Assembly: GCF_000264455.2 (NCBI RefSeq) | Contig: NC_017956.1 | Location: 3,206,001 to 3,270,000, forward strand | Source: Tistrella mobilis KA081020-065 | GTDB lineage: Bacteria; Pseudomonadota; Alphaproteobacteria; Tistrellales; Tistrellaceae | DNA: 64,000 bases | Direction: 5' to 3' | Part shown: piece by piece, positions 34,565 through 41,663 of the stretch | Position numbering within the stretch: position 1 is the first letter of the stretch | Layout: every line of letters starts with the position of its first letter | Translations under genes and position numbers: made by a program | The notes under the pieces: generated by a model | What the model was told of the DNA's origin: nothing | The model's input: the letters and a program-made list of their open reading frames with translations, nothing else | Databases searched by the model: none

Positions 34565-34759
34565 GGGTCTCGCGGCGAAGGCAGGTGCCGGCAGGCGGGC
34601 CGGCATCTCGAACCGCAAATAAGTCGCAAGTGCACCTTGAGCGCAAGCCTGCAACCATGCCCCGCGACGCTTTCGCGCGGACCCGGGTGCGGAAGGCCAC
34701 AATCGTGACGGTCCGGCGGTGACGGGTCTGCCTGCCGGTTCGGGCCCAGCCCCGGCGTT

Positions 34760-34775
34760 TACCATGTTTCAGGTA
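34760..34775 (+). promoter_or_regulatory. TACCAT-N4-CAGGTA site upstream of the response regulator (site 1 of 3)
   Basis: TACCATGTTTCAGGTA matches the two sites upstream of the secreted-protein genes in the left half and the outer GGTA. Its centre is 80 bases from ATG 34848, and about 32 bases upstream of a TAGACT -10-like hexamer (34799), a classical activator position. The conserved TACC...GGTA spacing suits a NarL/FixJ dimer, so autoregulation by the adjacent response regulator is inferred. Confidence 0.55.
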
Positions 34776-34847
34776 GAGCCAGCGCCGCCCCCCCGGCATA
34801 GACTGGCGGTGCCATTTGATCGGCGCATCGCTGTGATCGGGGAGTGA

Positions 34848-35528
34848 ATGACGGAAGAACGCGAGACGCGCCGCATACGCATCGTGCTGACCGAAGACGA
34901 TGCCCCGGTTCGCGACCGGCTGGCCCAGATCATCCGGGGCTGGCCGATGGCGGAACTGGTCGGGGCCTGCGCCACGCTGGCCGAGACCTGCGCCGTGATC
35001 GAGGCCGAGCCGATCAACCTGCTGATCACCGACCTCAAACTGCCCGACGGCAACGGCATCGAGGCGATCCGCCTGCTGTCCCGCCGGCAGCGCGACGCCC
35101 AGGCGATGGTCATCTCGGCACTGGCCGACGAGACCACCGTGCTGGCGGCGATCGAGGCCGGGGCGACCGGCTATCTGCTCAAGGACATGGAGTCGCACGA
35201 TCTCTGCGAGGCCGTGCTGGATGTGATGCTCGGCAGATCCCCCATCTCGTCCAGCATCGCCCGGGTTCTGGTGCGCCGCCTGTCGGATACTGCGCGCCCC
35301 GGCGCGCAGGAGGCAGCGACGGTTCCGGCCCCGACCCTGACGCCGCGGGAGATGGATATCCTCTGGGGGATCGCCAAGGGCTTCACCTATGCCGAACTGG
35401 CCGAGCGGCTGGGCATCTCGCACCAGACCGTGCCCGTGCATGTCCGGAACATCTATCGCAAGCTTCAGGCGTCCAACCGCTCGGAGGCCGTCTATGAGGC
35501 GACCCGCCTGGGGCTGATCCGCCTGTGA
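34848..35528 (+). CDS. NarL/FixJ-family response regulator
   Basis: A 226-residue response regulator. The receiver domain (about 10-125) has the acidic pocket LTEDDAPVRD, the phosphorylatable Asp62 in LLITDLKLPDG, the Ser/Ala switch residue in VISALADE and the Lys in GYLLKDM. The LuxR-type HTH (about 160-222) reads LTPREMDILWGIAKGFTYAELAERLGISHQTVPVHVRNIYRKLQASNRSEAV. Its stop overlaps the GTG start of a histidine kinase, forming a cognate pair. TACCAT...GGTA sites upstream of this gene and of the two secreted-protein genes downstream are its likely targets. It is transcribed divergently from the LysR gene. Confidence 0.92.
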   Translation: MTEERETRRIRIVLTEDDAPVRDRLAQIIRGWPMAELVGACATLAETCAVIEAEPINLLITDLKLPDGNGIEAIRLLSRRQRDAQAMVISALADETTVLAAIEAGATGYLLKDMESHDLCEAVLDVMLGRSPISSSIARVLVRRLSDTARPGAQEAATVPAPTLTPREMDILWGIAKGFTYAELAERLGISHQTVPVHVRNIYRKLQASNRSEAVYEATRLGLIRL

Positions 35529-37357
35529 CCGCGGCGGGCCCGGCAGATCACCGGCACGGCGTTGCGGTCGCTGTGCTGCTGGCGGTCATGATCGCTCTTG
35601 CCGGGCTTCCCTTTCTGGTCGGCCTGCCTTCCCCCAAGGCCGCGCTGGTGCTGGATCGGGCACAGCTGTCGCTGAACGGCGGCCCGGCTCATCCGGTCCG
35701 GCTGCCGCACAGCTGGCAACGCGATCTGCCCGAGCGGACGCAAGCGGTTTATCTGATCGATGTCGTCATCGATGCGGTTCCCGACCGGCCACAGAGCCTG
35801 TTCATCCCGTCGATCCGGCAGAAGCTGGCGGTGCAGTTGAACGGCCGGGTTCTGTATCGCCAGCGGGCGGCATCATGGGCCGATCTGTCGCGCGGCTATT
35901 TCGAGCTGCGGCAGATCCCGCCCGATCTTCTGGTCACCGGCACCAATCATCTGGTACTGACGCTGACCCGCACAGACGGGCTGATCCCGGCCCATCTCTC
36001 CCGGATCTATATCGGTGATGCCGAGGGGATGATCGATCCTCCGTGGCTCAGGCCGCTCATCAATACCGAGCTGCGCAGCATTTCGCTGGCGCTGCATCTG
36101 TTCATCGCGGCAGGGCTGTTCGCGATCTGGGCCGGGCGACCCTCCGATCCGGTGTTTCGCTGGCTGATGGTGCTCAGCGTCAGCAGTCTGGCGATGGCCG
36201 GGATCGAGCTCTGGCCCTTCCCGCGTCTCATCCCGTTCGCGACGTCTCATATCGTGCTGATGCTGCCGGCTTTCGGGCTGATGATGATCGGCCTTGCCCT
36301 GGCGATCACCGGACGCCCCAGACCGCGCTGGCTGGTACCGGCCATCATCCTCGTCCCCGCCCTGCTGCTGACGGTCCGGATCCTCGCCGATGCGCCGATC
36401 GCTCCCACGCAGCTTCTGGGGGCGGGCATCGGCATTGCCGGCCATGCCGTGGCCGGCCTGGTGCTTCTGCATGCTTTCGTCACACAGCGGTTGTGGACAG
36501 GGGGGCTGCTCGGCGTGTCCGCGCTGTTGACCGCCTGGTTCGGCATTCACGACGTTGCCGTGGCCTTCGGCCTGATCCCGGGCGCGTTCCTGCTGTCGAC
36601 CTTCGTGCGGCTGCTGACCTATCTCGCCTTCCTCATCCTGCTGATGTCGCGGCTCGCCACCAGTCTCAACCGGCTCGACCGGGCCAATGACGATCTGCGC
36701 GCCCGGCTGGCGGAGCGCGAAGCCGAGCTGTCGATCCTGCACGAGACGGAGAAACATCTGGTCGGCCAGGCGGTCCGCGAACAGGAACGCCGCCGGCTGA
36801 TGCAGGATCTGCATGACGGGCTGAGCGGCCATCTGGTGTCGATCATCGCCCTCTCCGAGACCGGACAGCGGCGCGACGACATCGAGCGGACCGCGCGCGA
36901 GGCCCTCGACGATCTCAGGCTGGTCATCCACTCGCTCGACCTCGGCGATACCGATCTGCCGCTGGCGCTGGCCGGCTTCCGAGAACGACTGACCCCGCGG
37001 CTTCGGCGGCTGGATGTCCGGCTGGTCTGGTCGATGGAAGCGCTACCCGAAATCCAGGGCGTCACACCAGGCAACGCCCTGTCGATCCTCCGGATCCTGC
37101 AGGAAGCCGTGACGAATGCCCTGAAGCACGGCCCCGCACGGTTGATCGAGATCAGGGGCACCCCCGACCCCGCAGGTGCCGGCGGAAAGATCGTCGTCAC
37201 AGATGACGGCACATCGACCGCGCCCATCGGCAAAGGCTTCGGCCTTGAGAACATGCGACGGCGCGCCAGACAGGTTGGCGGCAGCATCTCCCTGGTCAAG
37301 AACACAAATGGCAATGCGCTGCAATTATGTTTGCCAACTCGGCTTAACGACTGTTAA
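35525..37357 (+). CDS. Seven-helix membrane sensor histidine kinase (7TMR-DISM-like, HisKA_3)
   Basis: A 610-residue kinase. A first helix (about 14-32) leads into a periplasmic jelly-roll-like domain (about 35-180, with WQRDLPERTQAVYLIDVVID and TNHLVLTLTRT), then seven hydrophobic helices (about 190-385), a short coiled coil, the HisKA_3 dimerisation motif with phospho-accepting His430 (LMQDLHDGLSGHLVSII) and an HATPase domain (ILQEAVTNALKHGP, then VTDDGTS, KGFGLENMRRRARQVGG). The layout resembles 7TMR-DISM receptors, in which the periplasmic domain binds an extracellular ligand, often carbohydrate. GTG 35525 overlaps the response-regulator stop. It probably controls the secreted-protein genes that follow. 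Confidence 0.9.
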   Translation: MTAAGPADHRHGVAVAVLLAVMIALAGLPFLVGLPSPKAALVLDRAQLSLNGGPAHPVRLPHSWQRDLPERTQAVYLIDVVIDAVPDRPQSLFIPSIRQKLAVQLNGRVLYRQRAASWADLSRGYFELRQIPPDLLVTGTNHLVLTLTRTDGLIPAHLSRIYIGDAEGMIDPPWLRPLINTELRSISLALHLFIAAGLFAIWAGRPSDPVFRWLMVLSVSSLAMAGIELWPFPRLIPFATSHIVLMLPAFGLMMIGLALAITGRPRPRWLVPAIILVPALLLTVRILADAPIAPTQLLGAGIGIAGHAVAGLVLLHAFVTQRLWTGGLLGVSALLTAWFGIHDVAVAFGLIPGAFLLSTFVRLLTYLAFLILLMSRLATSLNRLDRANDDLRARLAEREAELSILHETEKHLVGQAVREQERRRLMQDLHDGLSGHLVSIIALSETGQRRDDIERTAREALDDLRLVIHSLDLGDTDLPLALAGFRERLTPRLRRLDVRLVWSMEALPEIQGVTPGNALSILRILQEAVTNALKHGPARLIEIRGTPDPAGAGGKIVVTDDGTSTAPIGKGFGLENMRRRARQVGGSISLVKNTNGNALQLCLPTRLNDC

Positions 37358-37401
37358 TTCGCGTAAATACGTATTTATTTTGAGAGATTTTCTGCAAGCT
37401 T

Positions 37402-37419
37402 ATACCATATTGATGGTAT
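37402..37419 (+). promoter_or_regulatory. Palindrome ATACCAT-ATTG-ATGGTAT upstream of secreted protein A (site 2 of 3)
   Basis: Seven-base perfect arms around ATTG; core TACCATATTGATGGTA at 37403-37418, centre 82 bases from ATG 37493. The surrounding 100 bases are AT-rich and also contain the 14-bp palindrome TAAATACGTATTTA (37364-37377). Downstream leader sequence (CTCTACGAGGGTA, 37445-37457) is partly shared with the leader of secreted protein B. Confidence 0.65.
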
Positions 37420-37492
37420 TTTGCTCAGATGTTTCACGTGTCTCTCTACGAGGGTACTTGATCGCCCCTCACATGAAACATGGGAGACAATG

Positions 37493-38641
37493 ATGATGAA
37501 AATACGCAAATGGGCCTGCAGCGTGTCGAGCATCGTCCTGATCCTCAACGGTTCAGCAGCCTTCGCCCAGGACTGTGCCAGCCTGGCAAGCGACGTTGGT
37601 ACGCGGATCGCGGATCTGAAGAAGAAGGCAGATACGGCGCCTGACGACGTCGAGAGCGACTATGCGTCGGCAACGTCGAAGGACTATGCGAACAAGCTCT
37701 TCTCCAGATTTGAGGATCTCAACAAGAAGGCAATACAGGCCTCGCAGCTCATCAACCAAGGATATAATCTTGCCGGTTACACTTCACCATTCAAGGAAGG
37801 GCAGCAGCAGACCAAGATACCACCGGTTGTGACCAATACGATGAGCAATGCTGAAGCCCTCGCTCAGGCCGCGGCGGATGACGACAACACCAAACTCGAC
37901 ATCCTGAGCCTGCGCTGCAGCCAGTCCACCGAACAGACTGCGCTCTCAGCCTATCTTGCCCAGGCTGATGCCGGCACCGTCTCGTCCTACGAGGCTGCCA
38001 AATACAACATCTGCAAGGTCGTTCACATTCTGGCCGATCTCCAGGACAAACGACAGAAGCTGAATGACATCCGCGAGAACGGATATCCACTCTTCTATCT
38101 CCATGAAAAGGAGAAGAAGAGCTATGACGGCCACAGCCGGACAATCCAGCTCAAAGTTGACCTCCGGCTCTACCCCGTATACCCGGAGCATGAGGATCAG
38201 GACATTCTTCTGGGTAAGTTGGAGAAAATTCGCCTGTCCTACAATTCGTACTTTAAGTGGAGCGACAATAACTGGACCAAGCTCAACGTCCTCCAGAAAC
38301 TGGTCGACGACCAGAATGATGAAAAGGAGGTCTGCTGGGGCAGCATCAAGATCACCAGCAGCGTGAAAGCCGACATCTGTTCCCAGGTTTACAACATCAG
38401 CACCGACAGCTTGAAGATCAAAGTCCGGGCGAAATTCAAGTACAGCGGTGACACGCATGCCGTCAGCCTCGGTACGGTCACTGTCCCGGCGCCGTTCGGA
38501 TATCTGTCGGATCTGTCGGACATGAAGGAGAAGAAAATGCAGGATCTGCAGGCGAAGGTCGTCGATCGCATTGCATCCCTGTTCGGAGCCTATGGTGACG
38601 TGATCGAGAAAGCCCAGAGCTGGCAGAAATCCTGCTCGTGA
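37493..38641 (+). CDS. Secreted six-cysteine protein of unknown family, paralogue A
   Basis: A 382-residue exported protein; no family is recognised. The signal peptide (KIRKWACSVSSIVLILNGSAAFA) is cut near residue 25, leaving QDC. The N-terminal half is helical and Lys/Ala-rich (IADLKKKAD, FSRFEDLNKKAIQASQLINQGYNLAGY, then SLRCSQSTEQTALSAYLAQADAG and KVVHILADLQDKRQKLNDIRENGYPLF). The C-terminal half is predicted beta-rich (TIQLKVDLRLYPVYP, RLSYNSYFKWSDNNW) and ends with the helix DMKEKKMQDLQAKVV. Mature cysteines are 28, 142, 174, 281, 296 and 381, conserved in paralogue B, suggesting three disulfides. Three consecutive ATGs (37490, 37493, 37496) are possible; 37493 is best spaced from GGGAG. 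Lower GC than neighbours. Confidence 0.8.
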   Translation: MMKIRKWACSVSSIVLILNGSAAFAQDCASLASDVGTRIADLKKKADTAPDDVESDYASATSKDYANKLFSRFEDLNKKAIQASQLINQGYNLAGYTSPFKEGQQQTKIPPVVTNTMSNAEALAQAAADDDNTKLDILSLRCSQSTEQTALSAYLAQADAGTVSSYEAAKYNICKVVHILADLQDKRQKLNDIRENGYPLFYLHEKEKKSYDGHSRTIQLKVDLRLYPVYPEHEDQDILLGKLEKIRLSYNSYFKWSDNNWTKLNVLQKLVDDQNDEKEVCWGSIKITSSVKADICSQVYNISTDSLKIKVRAKFKYSGDTHAVSLGTVTVPAPFGYLSDLSDMKEKKMQDLQAKVVDRIASLFGAYGDVIEKAQSWQKSCS

Positions 38642-38657
38642 TCCTCACCACATTCAG

Positions 38658-38688
38658 GGGGCACGGATGCTGGATGCCGCCGTGCCCC
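38658..38688 (+). terminator. Terminator-like hairpin after secreted protein A
   Basis: GGGGCACGG (38658-38666) pairs perfectly with CCGTGCCCC (38680-38688) around a 13-base loop, 17 bases after the stop codon. No U tract follows, so it may be a weak terminator or an mRNA 3'-end stabiliser. Confidence 0.45.
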
Positions 38689-38733
38689 AGCCACATTTCC
38701 ATGAGAGCCCGGGTTCATGGCGGTCCCAGCTCG

Positions 38734-38767
38734 TGAGAAATTCCGGGCCCATGAGAAATTCCGGGCC
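38734..38767. repeat. Two copies of a 16-bp direct repeat in the gap between the secreted-protein genes
   Basis: TGAGAAATTCCGGGCC occurs at 38734-38749 and 38752-38767, an 18-base period. It lies in the 311-base gap between paralogues A and B. Apart from this repeat, the 3' hairpin and operator site 3, the gap shows no coding sequence. Confidence 0.7.
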
Positions 38768-38868
38768 GGAGACCAGGCCGCAGTGACCTGCCACTGCAAA
38801 GGTCCGGTTCGACGACTGCCAGCATTCATGACCATCGTCCGGGATCCGGGCCGGAGATTCGCTCCGGG

Positions 38869-38884
38869 TACCATGTTGATGGTA
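38869..38884 (+). promoter_or_regulatory. Palindrome TACCAT-GTTG-ATGGTA upstream of secreted protein B (site 3 of 3)
   Basis: Perfect six-base arms; differs from site 2 by one base in the spacer and shares the following TATT. Its centre is 76 bases from ATG 38953. The leader after it (GTGTGCCCCTCTAGGAGGTA) parallels that of paralogue A. Its presence shows that gene B has its own promoter rather than relying on read-through from A. Confidence 0.65.
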
Positions 38885-38952
38885 TTCCGCTACCGGCGAT
38901 CGTGTGCCCCTCTAGGAGGTATCGCGCGTCCCTCGGATGAGACAGAAAGATA

Positions 38953-40122
38953 ATGAAAAAGCAGATGCATAACTGGGCATGCAGCATTGCGGCCCTTGCC
39001 GTCATCCTCAATGTTTCAACTGCCGCTGCCCAGGACTGTCTCGGCCTGGCGGGCGATGTCGGCGCGAGAATCACCGACCTGAAAAAGAAGGCCGATGCTG
39101 CACCGGGAGACGTCCAGAACGACTATGCCTCGGCGACCTCTAAGGACTACGCAAAGAGCTTCTTCACAGCGTTCGATGACCTCAACAAAAAGGCCAATGA
39201 GGCATCTCAACTTGTCGGTCAGGGCTACAAGCTGGCGGGCTACACGGCGGTCTTCCAGGAAGGCCAGATCCAGACAAAGATGCCACCAGTCGTGACCAAC
39301 ACCATGAGCAATGCCGAAGCCCTCGCCCAGGTGGCGGCCGATGGTGACAAGACGAAACTGGACATCCTGAGCCTGCGCTGCAGCCAGTCGACTGAACAGA
39401 CTGCGCTCGCCACCTATCTCGCCCAGGCGGATGCAGGAACCGTCTCCGCCTACAAGACCGCAAAATACGAAGCCTGCAAGGTCATCCACATCCTGGCCGA
39501 CCTTCAGGACAAGCGGCAGAAGCTGAACGATATCCGTGAAAACGGATATCCGCTGTTTTTTCTCCATGCCAAGGACAAGAAGAAATTTGCCGGCCACAGC
39601 CGGACTATCCAGCTGAAGGTCGACCTGCGGATGTTTCCAATCTACCCCGACAAGACAATGAAGGTGGATGGAAAAGACCAACCCGTCCTCCTTGGACAGA
39701 TCCAGGGAATCGACTTGTCGTATAATAGCTATTTCAAGTGGAGTGATGATAACTGGACTACACTCAACCTGTATCAGTATATTATTTCGGATACGCGGAA
39801 GGATGACTACACCTGCGCCCCCTATTTCCACATGACCAGCCACGTGGAGGCGACGCTCTGCGTCAAGGTCGAAGCGGCGAGTGCCGATAAACTCAAGGTC
39901 GGGGCGAAGGCCAAATTCAAATACAAAGGCGACACGAAAGAGGTCGGTTTCGGTACCCAGACCATCCCGGCGCCCTTTGGTTATCTCGCCGATCTCTCCG
40001 ACATGAAGGAAAAGAAGATGCAGGACCTCCAGTCAAAGGTCGTGCATCGCGTCGCCTCGCTCTTTGACGCCTATGATGCGGTGTCGGAGAAGGCCGAAGC
40101 CTGGCAGAAGTCCTGCAAATGA
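38953..40122 (+). CDS. Secreted six-cysteine protein of unknown family, paralogue B
   Basis: A 389-residue exported protein clearly homologous to paralogue A over its whole length, especially in the N-terminal half (PPVVTNTMSNAEALAQ, LDILSLRCSQSTEQTAL, HILADLQDKRQKLNDIRENGYPLF) and near the C-terminus (APFGYLADLSDMKEKKMQDLQ). The signal peptide (MKKQMHNWACSIAALAVILNVSTAAA) is cut near residue 26, again leaving QDC. All six mature cysteines of A are conserved; the segment between the fourth and fifth cysteines and the PDKTMKVDGKDQ insertion are the most diverged parts. The stop codon overlaps the start of the secretin-like lipoprotein gene (ATGA), implying a shared pathway. No known domain. 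Confidence 0.82.
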   Translation: MKKQMHNWACSIAALAVILNVSTAAAQDCLGLAGDVGARITDLKKKADAAPGDVQNDYASATSKDYAKSFFTAFDDLNKKANEASQLVGQGYKLAGYTAVFQEGQIQTKMPPVVTNTMSNAEALAQVAADGDKTKLDILSLRCSQSTEQTALATYLAQADAGTVSAYKTAKYEACKVIHILADLQDKRQKLNDIRENGYPLFFLHAKDKKKFAGHSRTIQLKVDLRMFPIYPDKTMKVDGKDQPVLLGQIQGIDLSYNSYFKWSDDNWTTLNLYQYIISDTRKDDYTCAPYFHMTSHVEATLCVKVEAASADKLKVGAKAKFKYKGDTKEVGFGTQTIPAPFGYLADLSDMKEKKMQDLQSKVVHRVASLFDAYDAVSEKAEAWQKSCK

Positions 40123-41663
40123 ACCTGGTGCCGTCTCCTGCGGCCCCGACGTCCCCCCGGCGCCCACACGGTTTTTTCAGGCCGCCCGAACGCCGGGCCA
40201 TTCCGGGCCGGCGCATCCGGGCGGCCGCAGCCGCCAGCGCCTGTATCATCCTGTCGGCCTGCTTCGGCGGCACACCACACTTCGCCGAACCCATGGCTCC
40301 GATCCATGAACTCGGGCATGACTGGCGCAAGCACTTCAGCTACGGGCTGGATCTGCTCGACCAGGACACCCCGCTCAACAACCGGGCAGTCTTCACGCGT
40401 GCCGCTTTCGCCAGTGCCGCACGTTTTGCCCGTGACCATGCCCCTTCCTATGTCGGGCTCGGCCTCGCCGAGAGCATGCTCGGCAATCAGGGAGAGGCTG
40501 AGGTCGCCTTTCTAAATGCCGCATTGATCGAGGATCGTAGCCTGTACTGGGCACTCGCGACCATTGCAGCCCTGCGCAACGGTGACGAGGCTGTCGCACG
40601 CACCCTCTTCGATGCGATGCAATCCGCGAAAATCCAGAGTGACGACCCGGCGAGCCGCTTCGTGCGAGAGGTCTATCTGGCAGAAAACCCTCCGTCAGAG
40701 GCCGCCATAACCAGGATCCCCTATCAGGCCAGGATTGAAGGCCTGGACGATGATCTCATCTGCAACGATACATCTGATGACGACGTGTGCCGCGACCTGA
40801 ACATCGTCGCCAATCTTTACTTCGTCCGCCGGACGTCGTCCGAAACGATGGCCCGAGGCACCGACTTCTTCAACGAACTCACGGTTCAGCTCGGCGCAGA
40901 ACGAACCCAGAGCTGGGAGAAAAACTCCGGTCAGGACTGGCAAATGAGCATCCTGAACGAAGTCACGCTCTCAATCCCCGAGATTCAGTATGCGGTCCGC
41001 ATCACCCCCCAGGCCAGCAACAGCAAGGTCTATGTCGACGCGGCACCCTCGGTGGTAACGTCCATCGGAAATACCTCGGAGATCCATGAAGGGGCCAATC
41101 TGACGATCCTCTACAACTCGACCGGCGATGCCGAGGAGTACACGGCCGAGACAGGGCTGACGCTCCATATAGAACCGGATCGGGCGACACCCAGATATGC
41201 CAGTCTGCAATTGCAGTTCGAGTTCAGCTCGATCGCAACCTTCGAACCATCAGCCCTGGCACAGGTCCTGAACGTGTCGAAGAACACCTATCAAATCACC
41301 GGCTATTTCCCCTATGGCCGGCCAGTGGTTCTCGGCACGATTGCCAACACCACGAAACAACACACCAATAGCGGTCAGACTGTCCTCGACCGCATTCCTC
41401 TGGTCGGCGGTGCTTTTGGGCAGTCGGACACACAGCTTGCGACATCAGACACACTGATCCTCGCCCGATTGTCTGTCCCATCTGCCTTCCATGGCTCGCA
41501 CGAGCAACGGGTACTTGATGCGATGCGGGGCATGGGTGTCGAGGTGATGGGATATGACATGATCGAACGTCGCAGGATTGTCCATCTGGCACCGGACCTT
41601 CTCGACTTCCTGCCAGCCTTCCTCAAAACCGGTGCCCTTTCGGGCACCGGTTTTGAGGGCTGA
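40119..41663 (+). CDS. TPR-containing lipoprotein with a C-terminal secretin-like domain
   Basis: A 514-residue predicted outer-membrane lipoprotein. A basic stretch precedes a hydrophobic segment and lipobox (IILSAC, Cys about residue 48). Residues about 65-200 read as TPR-like helical repeats (AVFTRAAFASAARFARDHAPSYVGLGLAESMLGNQGEAEVAFLNAALIEDRSLYWALATIAALR). From about 270 the pattern follows the secretin barrel: an AAPSVVTSIGNTSEIHEG strand pair, TGLTLHIEPDRATPRYASLQLQFEF, then YGRPVVLGTIANTTKQHTNSGQTVLDRIPLVGGAFG (about 398-433) and SDTLILARLSVP. This mirrors GETVVLGG...VPLLGDIPLLGxLF of GspD/PilQ. Lipidated secretins exist (BfpB-type). ATG overlaps the paralogue B stop. The last 14 codons run into a terminator hairpin. 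The assignment rests on motif reading only. Confidence 0.62.
   Translation: MNLVPSPAAPTSPRRPHGFFRPPERRAIPGRRIRAAAAASACIILSACFGGTPHFAEPMAPIHELGHDWRKHFSYGLDLLDQDTPLNNRAVFTRAAFASAARFARDHAPSYVGLGLAESMLGNQGEAEVAFLNAALIEDRSLYWALATIAALRNGDEAVARTLFDAMQSAKIQSDDPASRFVREVYLAENPPSEAAITRIPYQARIEGLDDDLICNDTSDDDVCRDLNIVANLYFVRRTSSETMARGTDFFNELTVQLGAERTQSWEKNSGQDWQMSILNEVTLSIPEIQYAVRITPQASNSKVYVDAAPSVVTSIGNTSEIHEGANLTILYNSTGDAEEYTAETGLTLHIEPDRATPRYASLQLQFEFSSIATFEPSALAQVLNVSKNTYQITGYFPYGRPVVLGTIANTTKQHTNSGQTVLDRIPLVGGAFGQSDTQLATSDTLILARLSVPSAFHGSHEQRVLDAMRGMGVEVMGYDMIERRRIVHLAPDLLDFLPAFLKTGALSGTGFEG
41621..41658. terminator. Bidirectional rho-independent terminator inside the last codons of the secretin-like gene
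   Basis: A perfect 17-bp stem (CCTCAAAACCGGTGCCC at 41621-41637 with its complement at 41642-41658) and TTTC loop. The core CCGGTGCCC/GGGCACCGG is flanked by AAAA and TTTT, so it can terminate both the plus-strand operon and the convergent alcohol dehydrogenase gene. It overlaps coding sequence up to five bases before the stop. Confidence 0.85.

Follow-up and report, generated by a model that had tools for sequence, protein, structure and literature searches.

The TPR-secretin of Tistrella mobilis

The open reading frame at positions 40119..41663 (plus strand) of a 64,000-nucleotide stretch of Tistrella mobilis KA081020-065 (contig NC_017956.1, positions 3,206,001 to 3,270,000; hereafter the window) codes for a predicted lipoprotein of 514 amino acids, here termed TPR-secretin, which was characterised with domain profiles, AlphaFold2, Foldseek and VIA-align. 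It is a lipobox protein in which a solenoid of tetratricopeptide repeats (TPR) is followed by a genuine secretin domain, without N0 or Secretin_N. Upstream on the same strand lie the genes for a response regulator, a sensor histidine kinase and two secreted proteins, c1 and c2, and the start codon of the TPR-secretin overlaps the stop codon of c2 (ATGA). The known secretins serve large assemblies as outer gate, i.e. the type II and type III secretion systems (T2SS, T3SS), type IV pili (T4P), the Tad system and filamentous phages, onto which they are docked by their N-domains.

Together with its first long strand, the secretin domain covers residues 226-455 (40794..41483, plus strand) as judged from Pfam, AlphaFold2 and Foldseek. 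The Pfam family Secretin (PF00263) matched residues 300-448 (41016-41462) with 46.2 bits against a curated cut-off of 27.5 (E 4.8e-12), and the secretin signature SGQTVLDRIPLVGGAFG (41370..41420, plus strand) aligned with the family consensus SGVPxLQDIPGVQYLFS. The C-terminal string on which the initial annotation had based its secretin assignment is present in the sequence. The NCBIfam profiles for GspD (TIGR02517, E 2.1e-5; 23.2 bits, far below the cut-off of 351.35) and PilQ (E 1.2e-3, far under its cut-off) also matched, as did, weakly, the PHROG profile for pIV (E 4e-4), and the nearest solved relative by sequence was GspD of Escherichia coli (PDB 5wq7, E 2.4e-5). Since N-domains are missing and the NCBIfam cut-offs were not reached, we rejected the identification as an ordinary GspD or PilQ. 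Apart from Secretin, Pfam reported nothing at E<=10 but a weak TPR match; Secretin_N, N0, STN and the DUF560 barrel gave no match.

In the N-terminal part, a long N-region leads into a hydrophobic segment, which is followed by the lipobox LSAC, read directly from the sequence, with the putative lipidated Cys48 at 40260..40262 (plus strand), where the initial annotation had placed the anchor. This cysteine aligned with the lipobox cysteine of 16 relatives (17/17 in alignment A2). The TPR solenoid spans approx. residues 57-198 (40287..40712, plus strand) and rests on the AlphaFold2 helices 60-189 and on VIA-align, which fitted residues 57-198 to TPR domains or chains with Z scores of 12-13.6. 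All 50 rows listed by VIA-align were of TPR type, which given the Foldseek result is no argument against the secretin domain. The AlphaFold2 monomer, built with 59 relatives, showed helices 60-189, blocks of which scored above 90, followed by one long strand (228-246), secretin strands up to residue 452 and finally C-terminal helices. Foldseek placed secretins at all ranks 1-40 (GspD, PilQ, InvG, RcpA, pIV and others; E 7.6e-14 to 6.4e-9), and the matches below rank 40 were mainly TPR proteins. The earlier proposal of a lipobox and a secretin domain, with helical repeats taking the place of N0-N3, thus held in each of its structural parts. Against the copy in G190, a genome labelled as the same species, dN/dS (non-synonymous over synonymous divergence) of the TPR-secretin was 0.12, a sign of purifying selection.

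At the 3' end of the gene a hairpin, AAAACCGGTGCCC..GGGCACCGGTTTT, was read from the sequence at 41625..41654 (no strand assigned), and a related hairpin exists at the corresponding junction of the congener G001, which lacks the surrounding block (see below). The last codons of the TPR-secretin, as they read, run through this pre-existing hairpin downstream of an alcohol dehydrogenase (ADH) gene. The tail conserved in the family (EFRTGD...FLYY) was absent from the window protein as well as from its relative L021, and the read-through of the hairpin may explain this absence.

A family without N-domains in Alpha-, Beta- and Gammaproteobacteria

A pattern scan of genome contigs with the single protein returned no relatives of the TPR-secretin, and the family was therefore reached through profiles instead. 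The first family search yielded L021, L022, L023 and L024, all of which matched Secretin and TPR and lacked N0 and Secretin_N; the ordinary GspDs from the same search showed N0 and/or Secretin_N, and L025, L030 and L033 had both. Together with the window protein the four relatives made up a five-sequence profile, which matched at E<=1e-33 in about 24 of 385 alphaproteobacterial genomes. From the 105 relatives that a second search, with a seven-sequence alignment, picked up in GTDB genomes, 80 loci were retained. Their hosts include Rhodospirillales, Thalassospira, Caedibacter and Magnetococcales, many Betaproteobacteria (Limnobacter, Herminiimonas, Rhodoferax and others) and, on the gamma side, Idiomarina/Cellvibrionaceae. 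The window protein is consequently not a singleton and belongs, as a divergent member, to a family in Alpha-, Beta- and Gammaproteobacteria. The architecture had initially been called new: it does stand outside known secretion operons, and it is not unique to this gene, since a broad family exists. A full-text literature search, which for the most part did not extend to subscription journals and preprints, brought up no description of a TPR-secretin fusion.

In a census of 60 family members Pfam detected Secretin in all 60, TPR_2 in 45 and N-domains in none. Further profiles matched as follows: GspD 60/60, PilQ 59/60 and PilW, the T4P pilotin, 55/60, and those of the exporters PgaA and BcsC 6/60 and 4/60, respectively. 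In a tree of secretin domains the TPR-secretins split from 14 other secretins with a support of 0.96, and the window protein grouped with the G190 copy and L021 (support 0.97). It forms a divergent branch and shares 17-23% identity with the 59 remaining rows of the alignment.

Some individual members deserve mention. In L023:9219-11390 the TPR and secretin parts are separated by a LysM domain (3e-10), which suggests peptidoglycan anchoring. TPR-secretins were retained in tiny genomes of 0.6-0.8 Mb (G018, G149, G327, G132 and G234; loci L086, L081, L083), in one of them in tandem, and this retention in reduced genomes suggests an important role there. The loci L077 and L078 (G141) hold two TPR-secretin genes, each broken across two open reading frames, possibly decaying copies.

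Secretin and platform genes were surveyed in 26 genomes, 25 bearing the family plus G001. In four genomes that are 98-99% complete (G104, G105, G210 and G134) the TPR-secretin was the sole secretin and no match to T2SSF was found. G118, 80% complete, contained only fragments of the family and neither T2SSF nor T2SSE. Matches to T2SSE-like ATPases persist in three of the four (G105, G210 and G134), partial in two and with a stop codon in G210; these leftover ATPases are probably of the VirB11/TadA type. The remaining 20 of the 25 family-bearing genomes have T2SSF. The genomes without T2SSF suggest that a TPR-secretin can stand alone. In the source genome itself, T2SSF and T2SSE matches were located at C1:2.115 and 2.44 Mb, away from the TPR-secretin at approx. 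3.247 Mb, in line with the initial placement of the gene outside any T2SS, T4P or T3SS operon. The other secretin of this genome, a protein of 590 amino acids with a lipobox, is encoded beside GspE- and GspF-like genes (C1:2112000-2123000, L019).

Neighbouring genes and the mobile block

More telling than the secretin gene itself are the genes upstream of its coordinates, which encode a two-component system and the pair of secreted proteins. At 34848..35528 (plus strand) a response regulator of NarL/LuxR type is encoded (Pfam Response_reg 1.3e-18, GerE 2.8e-17), and its gene overlaps by 4 nt that of a membrane sensor histidine kinase at 35525..37357 (plus strand; HATPase_c 1.1e-7, HisKA_3 4e-4). 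Homologues of the regulator, 37-38% identical, were found at the TPR-secretin loci L155, L157, L114 and L132, and homologues of the kinase at L159, L155 and L114. The candidate cargo proteins follow on the plus strand, c1 at 37490..38641, with an ATG start and a signal peptide ending ...NGSAAFAQ, and c2 at 38953..40122, with a signal peptide ending ...NVSTAAAQ. They are paralogues of about 384-389 amino acids each and 68% identical, whereas G190 has a single c gene, closer to c2 (81%) than to c1 (65%). The C-terminal half of the c2 model was beta-rich at low confidence (mean predicted local distance difference test score, pLDDT, 49.9). Fold matches of c2 to a dust-mite allergen and an actin capping protein were discarded, as the Foldseek E values were no better than 1e-3.

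Among the 385 alphaproteobacterial genomes the c1/c2 family was present in two, which belong to this species and have the secretin adjacent, and it was present in none of 368 other genomes in the class of G385. Homologues also occur at L098, L157 and L151, no more than 8 kb away from a TPR-secretin; these loci come from metagenome-assembled genomes of Azoarcus, Burkholderiales and Rhodospirillales, respectively. When the three genomes that had first revealed the link were dropped, the family occurred in 2 of 13 TPR-secretin genomes versus 0 of 368 others (p 0.001); the sampling differed between the two sets, and the 368 had not been screened for TPR-secretins.

Beyond the window, same-strand genes within 250 nt of the TPR-secretin were surveyed at 78 loci with a simple signal-peptide rule. 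A signal peptide was assigned to 95 of the 115 close neighbours, versus 232 of 587 genes elsewhere in these loci (Fisher 6e-18), and 68 of the 78 loci had at least one adjacent signal-peptide gene. Pfam, run on 87 of the 115 neighbours, recognised Tectonin in 21, Pentapeptide in 17, Jacalin in 10, Ricin_B in 4 and Tachylectin in 1. These counts identify a lectin-like or repeat exoprotein as the recurrent partner, and by association such neighbours are candidate export substrates. Genes for solute-binding proteins of the TAXI type stand directly beside several TPR-secretins (L113:7024-7992, L104:6727-7752 and others), in several cases with a 4-nt overlap. A TPR-secretin of G118 is immediately preceded by an open reading frame of 2384 amino acids (L082:9836-16990), which has a hydrophobic segment at its N-terminus and may be a giant cargo.

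A blastn comparison of the window with the G001 region (L182) revealed a 6.9-kb block, 34709..41628 (no strand assigned), that is absent from the congener. The match stops at 34708 and restarts at 41628 at adjacent G001 positions, so that the flanks are contiguous there. The block contains the genes for the regulator, the kinase, c1, c2 and the TPR-secretin bar its last codons; in the fetched G001 region these five were jointly absent, and LysR and ADH were present. No match indicating plasmid origin was found in PLSDB. The GC content of c1, c2 and the TPR-secretin was 54-60%, versus 67-70% in the flanks.

Between the source genome (G000) and G190, TPR-secretin and candidate cargo had diverged together. 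The synonymous divergence (dS) was 0.04-0.05 for LysR, the response regulator, ADH and a sigma-54 regulator, versus 0.20 for the kinase, 0.80 for c2 and 1.15 for the TPR-secretin, and dN/dS of c2 was 0.12, the same as for the secretin. Near 36.9-37.1 kb the identity, 95-99% up to there, dropped to about 80%, and it was back at 99% just past the secretin stop at about 41.66 kb. Joint replacement of cargo and channel would be the expectation for a matched pair.

A proposed export route and its alternatives

The interpretation that we favour, with a probability of roughly 0.6, is that the TPR-secretin is a self-piloting, stand-alone secretin of the outer membrane that would export neighbouring proteins. 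The lipid anchor and the TPR domain would stand in for a separate TPR pilotin of the PilW/PilF/TadD type and bring the chain to the outer membrane, where the C-terminal domain may assemble as a secretin ring with a gate. Projecting into the periplasm at the position usually taken by N0-N3, the TPR domains would capture a dedicated substrate exported by the Sec pathway and hand it over to the pore. In the source genome the substrate would most likely be the c1/c2 pair, made from the same operon, which the adjacent kinase and response regulator might switch on; in relatives it could be a tectonin, jacalin, ricin-B or pentapeptide-repeat exoprotein.

Parts of this proposal have parallels in known systems. 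The secretin domain, the signature and the predicted fold are common to GspD, PilQ, SctC, pIV and RcpA (PF00263), from which the TPR-secretin differs by having TPR instead of N0-N3 and no linked platform genes. The HxcQ liposecretin likewise bears its own lipid anchor, which in the TPR-secretin is predicted; HxcQ, in contrast, retains N-domains and works with a T2SS. The N-terminal part resembles the TPR pilotins PilW/PilF and TadD, in which a lipidated TPR solenoid serves a secretin, with the differences that in the TPR-secretin solenoid and secretin are one chain and that the window protein lacks the conserved C-terminal tail. TadD has a predicted lipidated cysteine, a PilF-like TPR fold and a groove that binds the C-terminus of RcpA (PMC10499894), and this binding makes a fused pilotin plausible. 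A functional analogy may be drawn to Type XI secretion (Slam, NilB and HrpB), which has periplasmic TPR with an outer-membrane barrel and co-occurring cargo genes (PMC8406197) and one known required component (PMC9100927); there, the barrel is of the DUF560 type instead of a secretin.

Several observations weigh against the favoured interpretation. The best Pfam TPR match of the window protein, TPR_16, fell short of significance (E 5.4), PilW did not match it significantly, versus 55 of 60 family members, and a lipobox-like motif was seen in only 36 of the 60. The AlphaFold2 monomer had a mean pLDDT of 69 and a predicted template modelling score of 0.45, and the stretch 255-299 was poorly modelled. 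Ten of the 78 loci have no adjacent signal-peptide gene, the signal-peptide rule is crude with a background of 40%, and 11 of the 87 scanned neighbours matched NMT1_3 (TAXI-type solute-binding) and look periplasmic, not exported. The c1/c2 homologue of L157 lies approx. 5 kb from the secretin and those of L098 and L151 are on the opposite strand. In the TPR-secretin genomes G391 and G399, for which co-occurrence with c1/c2 formed part of the selection, the c1/c2-family gene is away from any TPR-secretin and looks broken in G399; physical linkage is thus not obligatory. Simple linkage inside one recombined segment could give the same joint divergence. Finally, the GspE/GspF proteins of the source genome could in principle drive the window secretin.

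This last point leads to the strongest of the alternatives, still an unlikely one, in which the TPR-secretin is an alternative outer-membrane channel for a T2SS- or T4P-like platform encoded elsewhere (GspE/GspF at C1:2.115 Mb). T2SSF and T2SSE genes do exist in the genome, and T2SSF accompanies the family in 20 of 25 genomes. However, the GspE/GspF cluster owns a secretin (L001), four almost complete family-bearing genomes are entirely without T2SSF, and N0, the domain that docks onto GspC or PilP of the inner membrane, is absent from the TPR-secretin. Only slightly less probable is a channel for polysaccharides or small molecules, with the lectin-like neighbours acting in the periplasm or on glycans. 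PgaA and BcsC, whose plan is TPR plus barrel, lend this idea a model, and their profiles matched a few members of a family with many lectin-like neighbours; yet glycan-synthesis genes are missing from the window block and do not recur in the set of 87 neighbours scanned.

We consider it improbable that the protein is a non-channel scaffold of the outer membrane, displaying or assembling its neighbours. Residues 255-299, left unmodelled by AlphaFold2, possibly contain gate elements, and the window protein has lost the tail conserved in its relatives, and both points speak for a scaffold; the secretin domain, on the other hand, is intact from the first strand to the signature and under purifying selection. 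A remnant of a filamentous phage with a pIV-like secretin was already disfavoured and we regard it as very improbable. The pIV profile match and the mobility of the block would fit it, whereas no match was found in 50,697 phage records, no relative was confirmed in viral contigs and no phage gene was recognised in the block; moreover, pIV carries N-domains.

A wider claim may be attached to the stand-alone, self-piloting secretin, which we put forward tentatively and at somewhat below even odds: that it represents a hitherto undescribed secretion pathway, with essentially one component, in Gram-negative bacteria, in which a secretin carries its TPR pilotin as a fused domain, does without an inner-membrane machine, is paired with dedicated lectin-like exoproteins and passes between strains with its cargo as a cassette. 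If true, a secretin could act as a pore by itself, and two questions would become testable: what purpose the N-domains serve, and whether gating depends on an inner-membrane motor. It would also provide an export route for dozens of uncharacterised lectin-like exoproteins.

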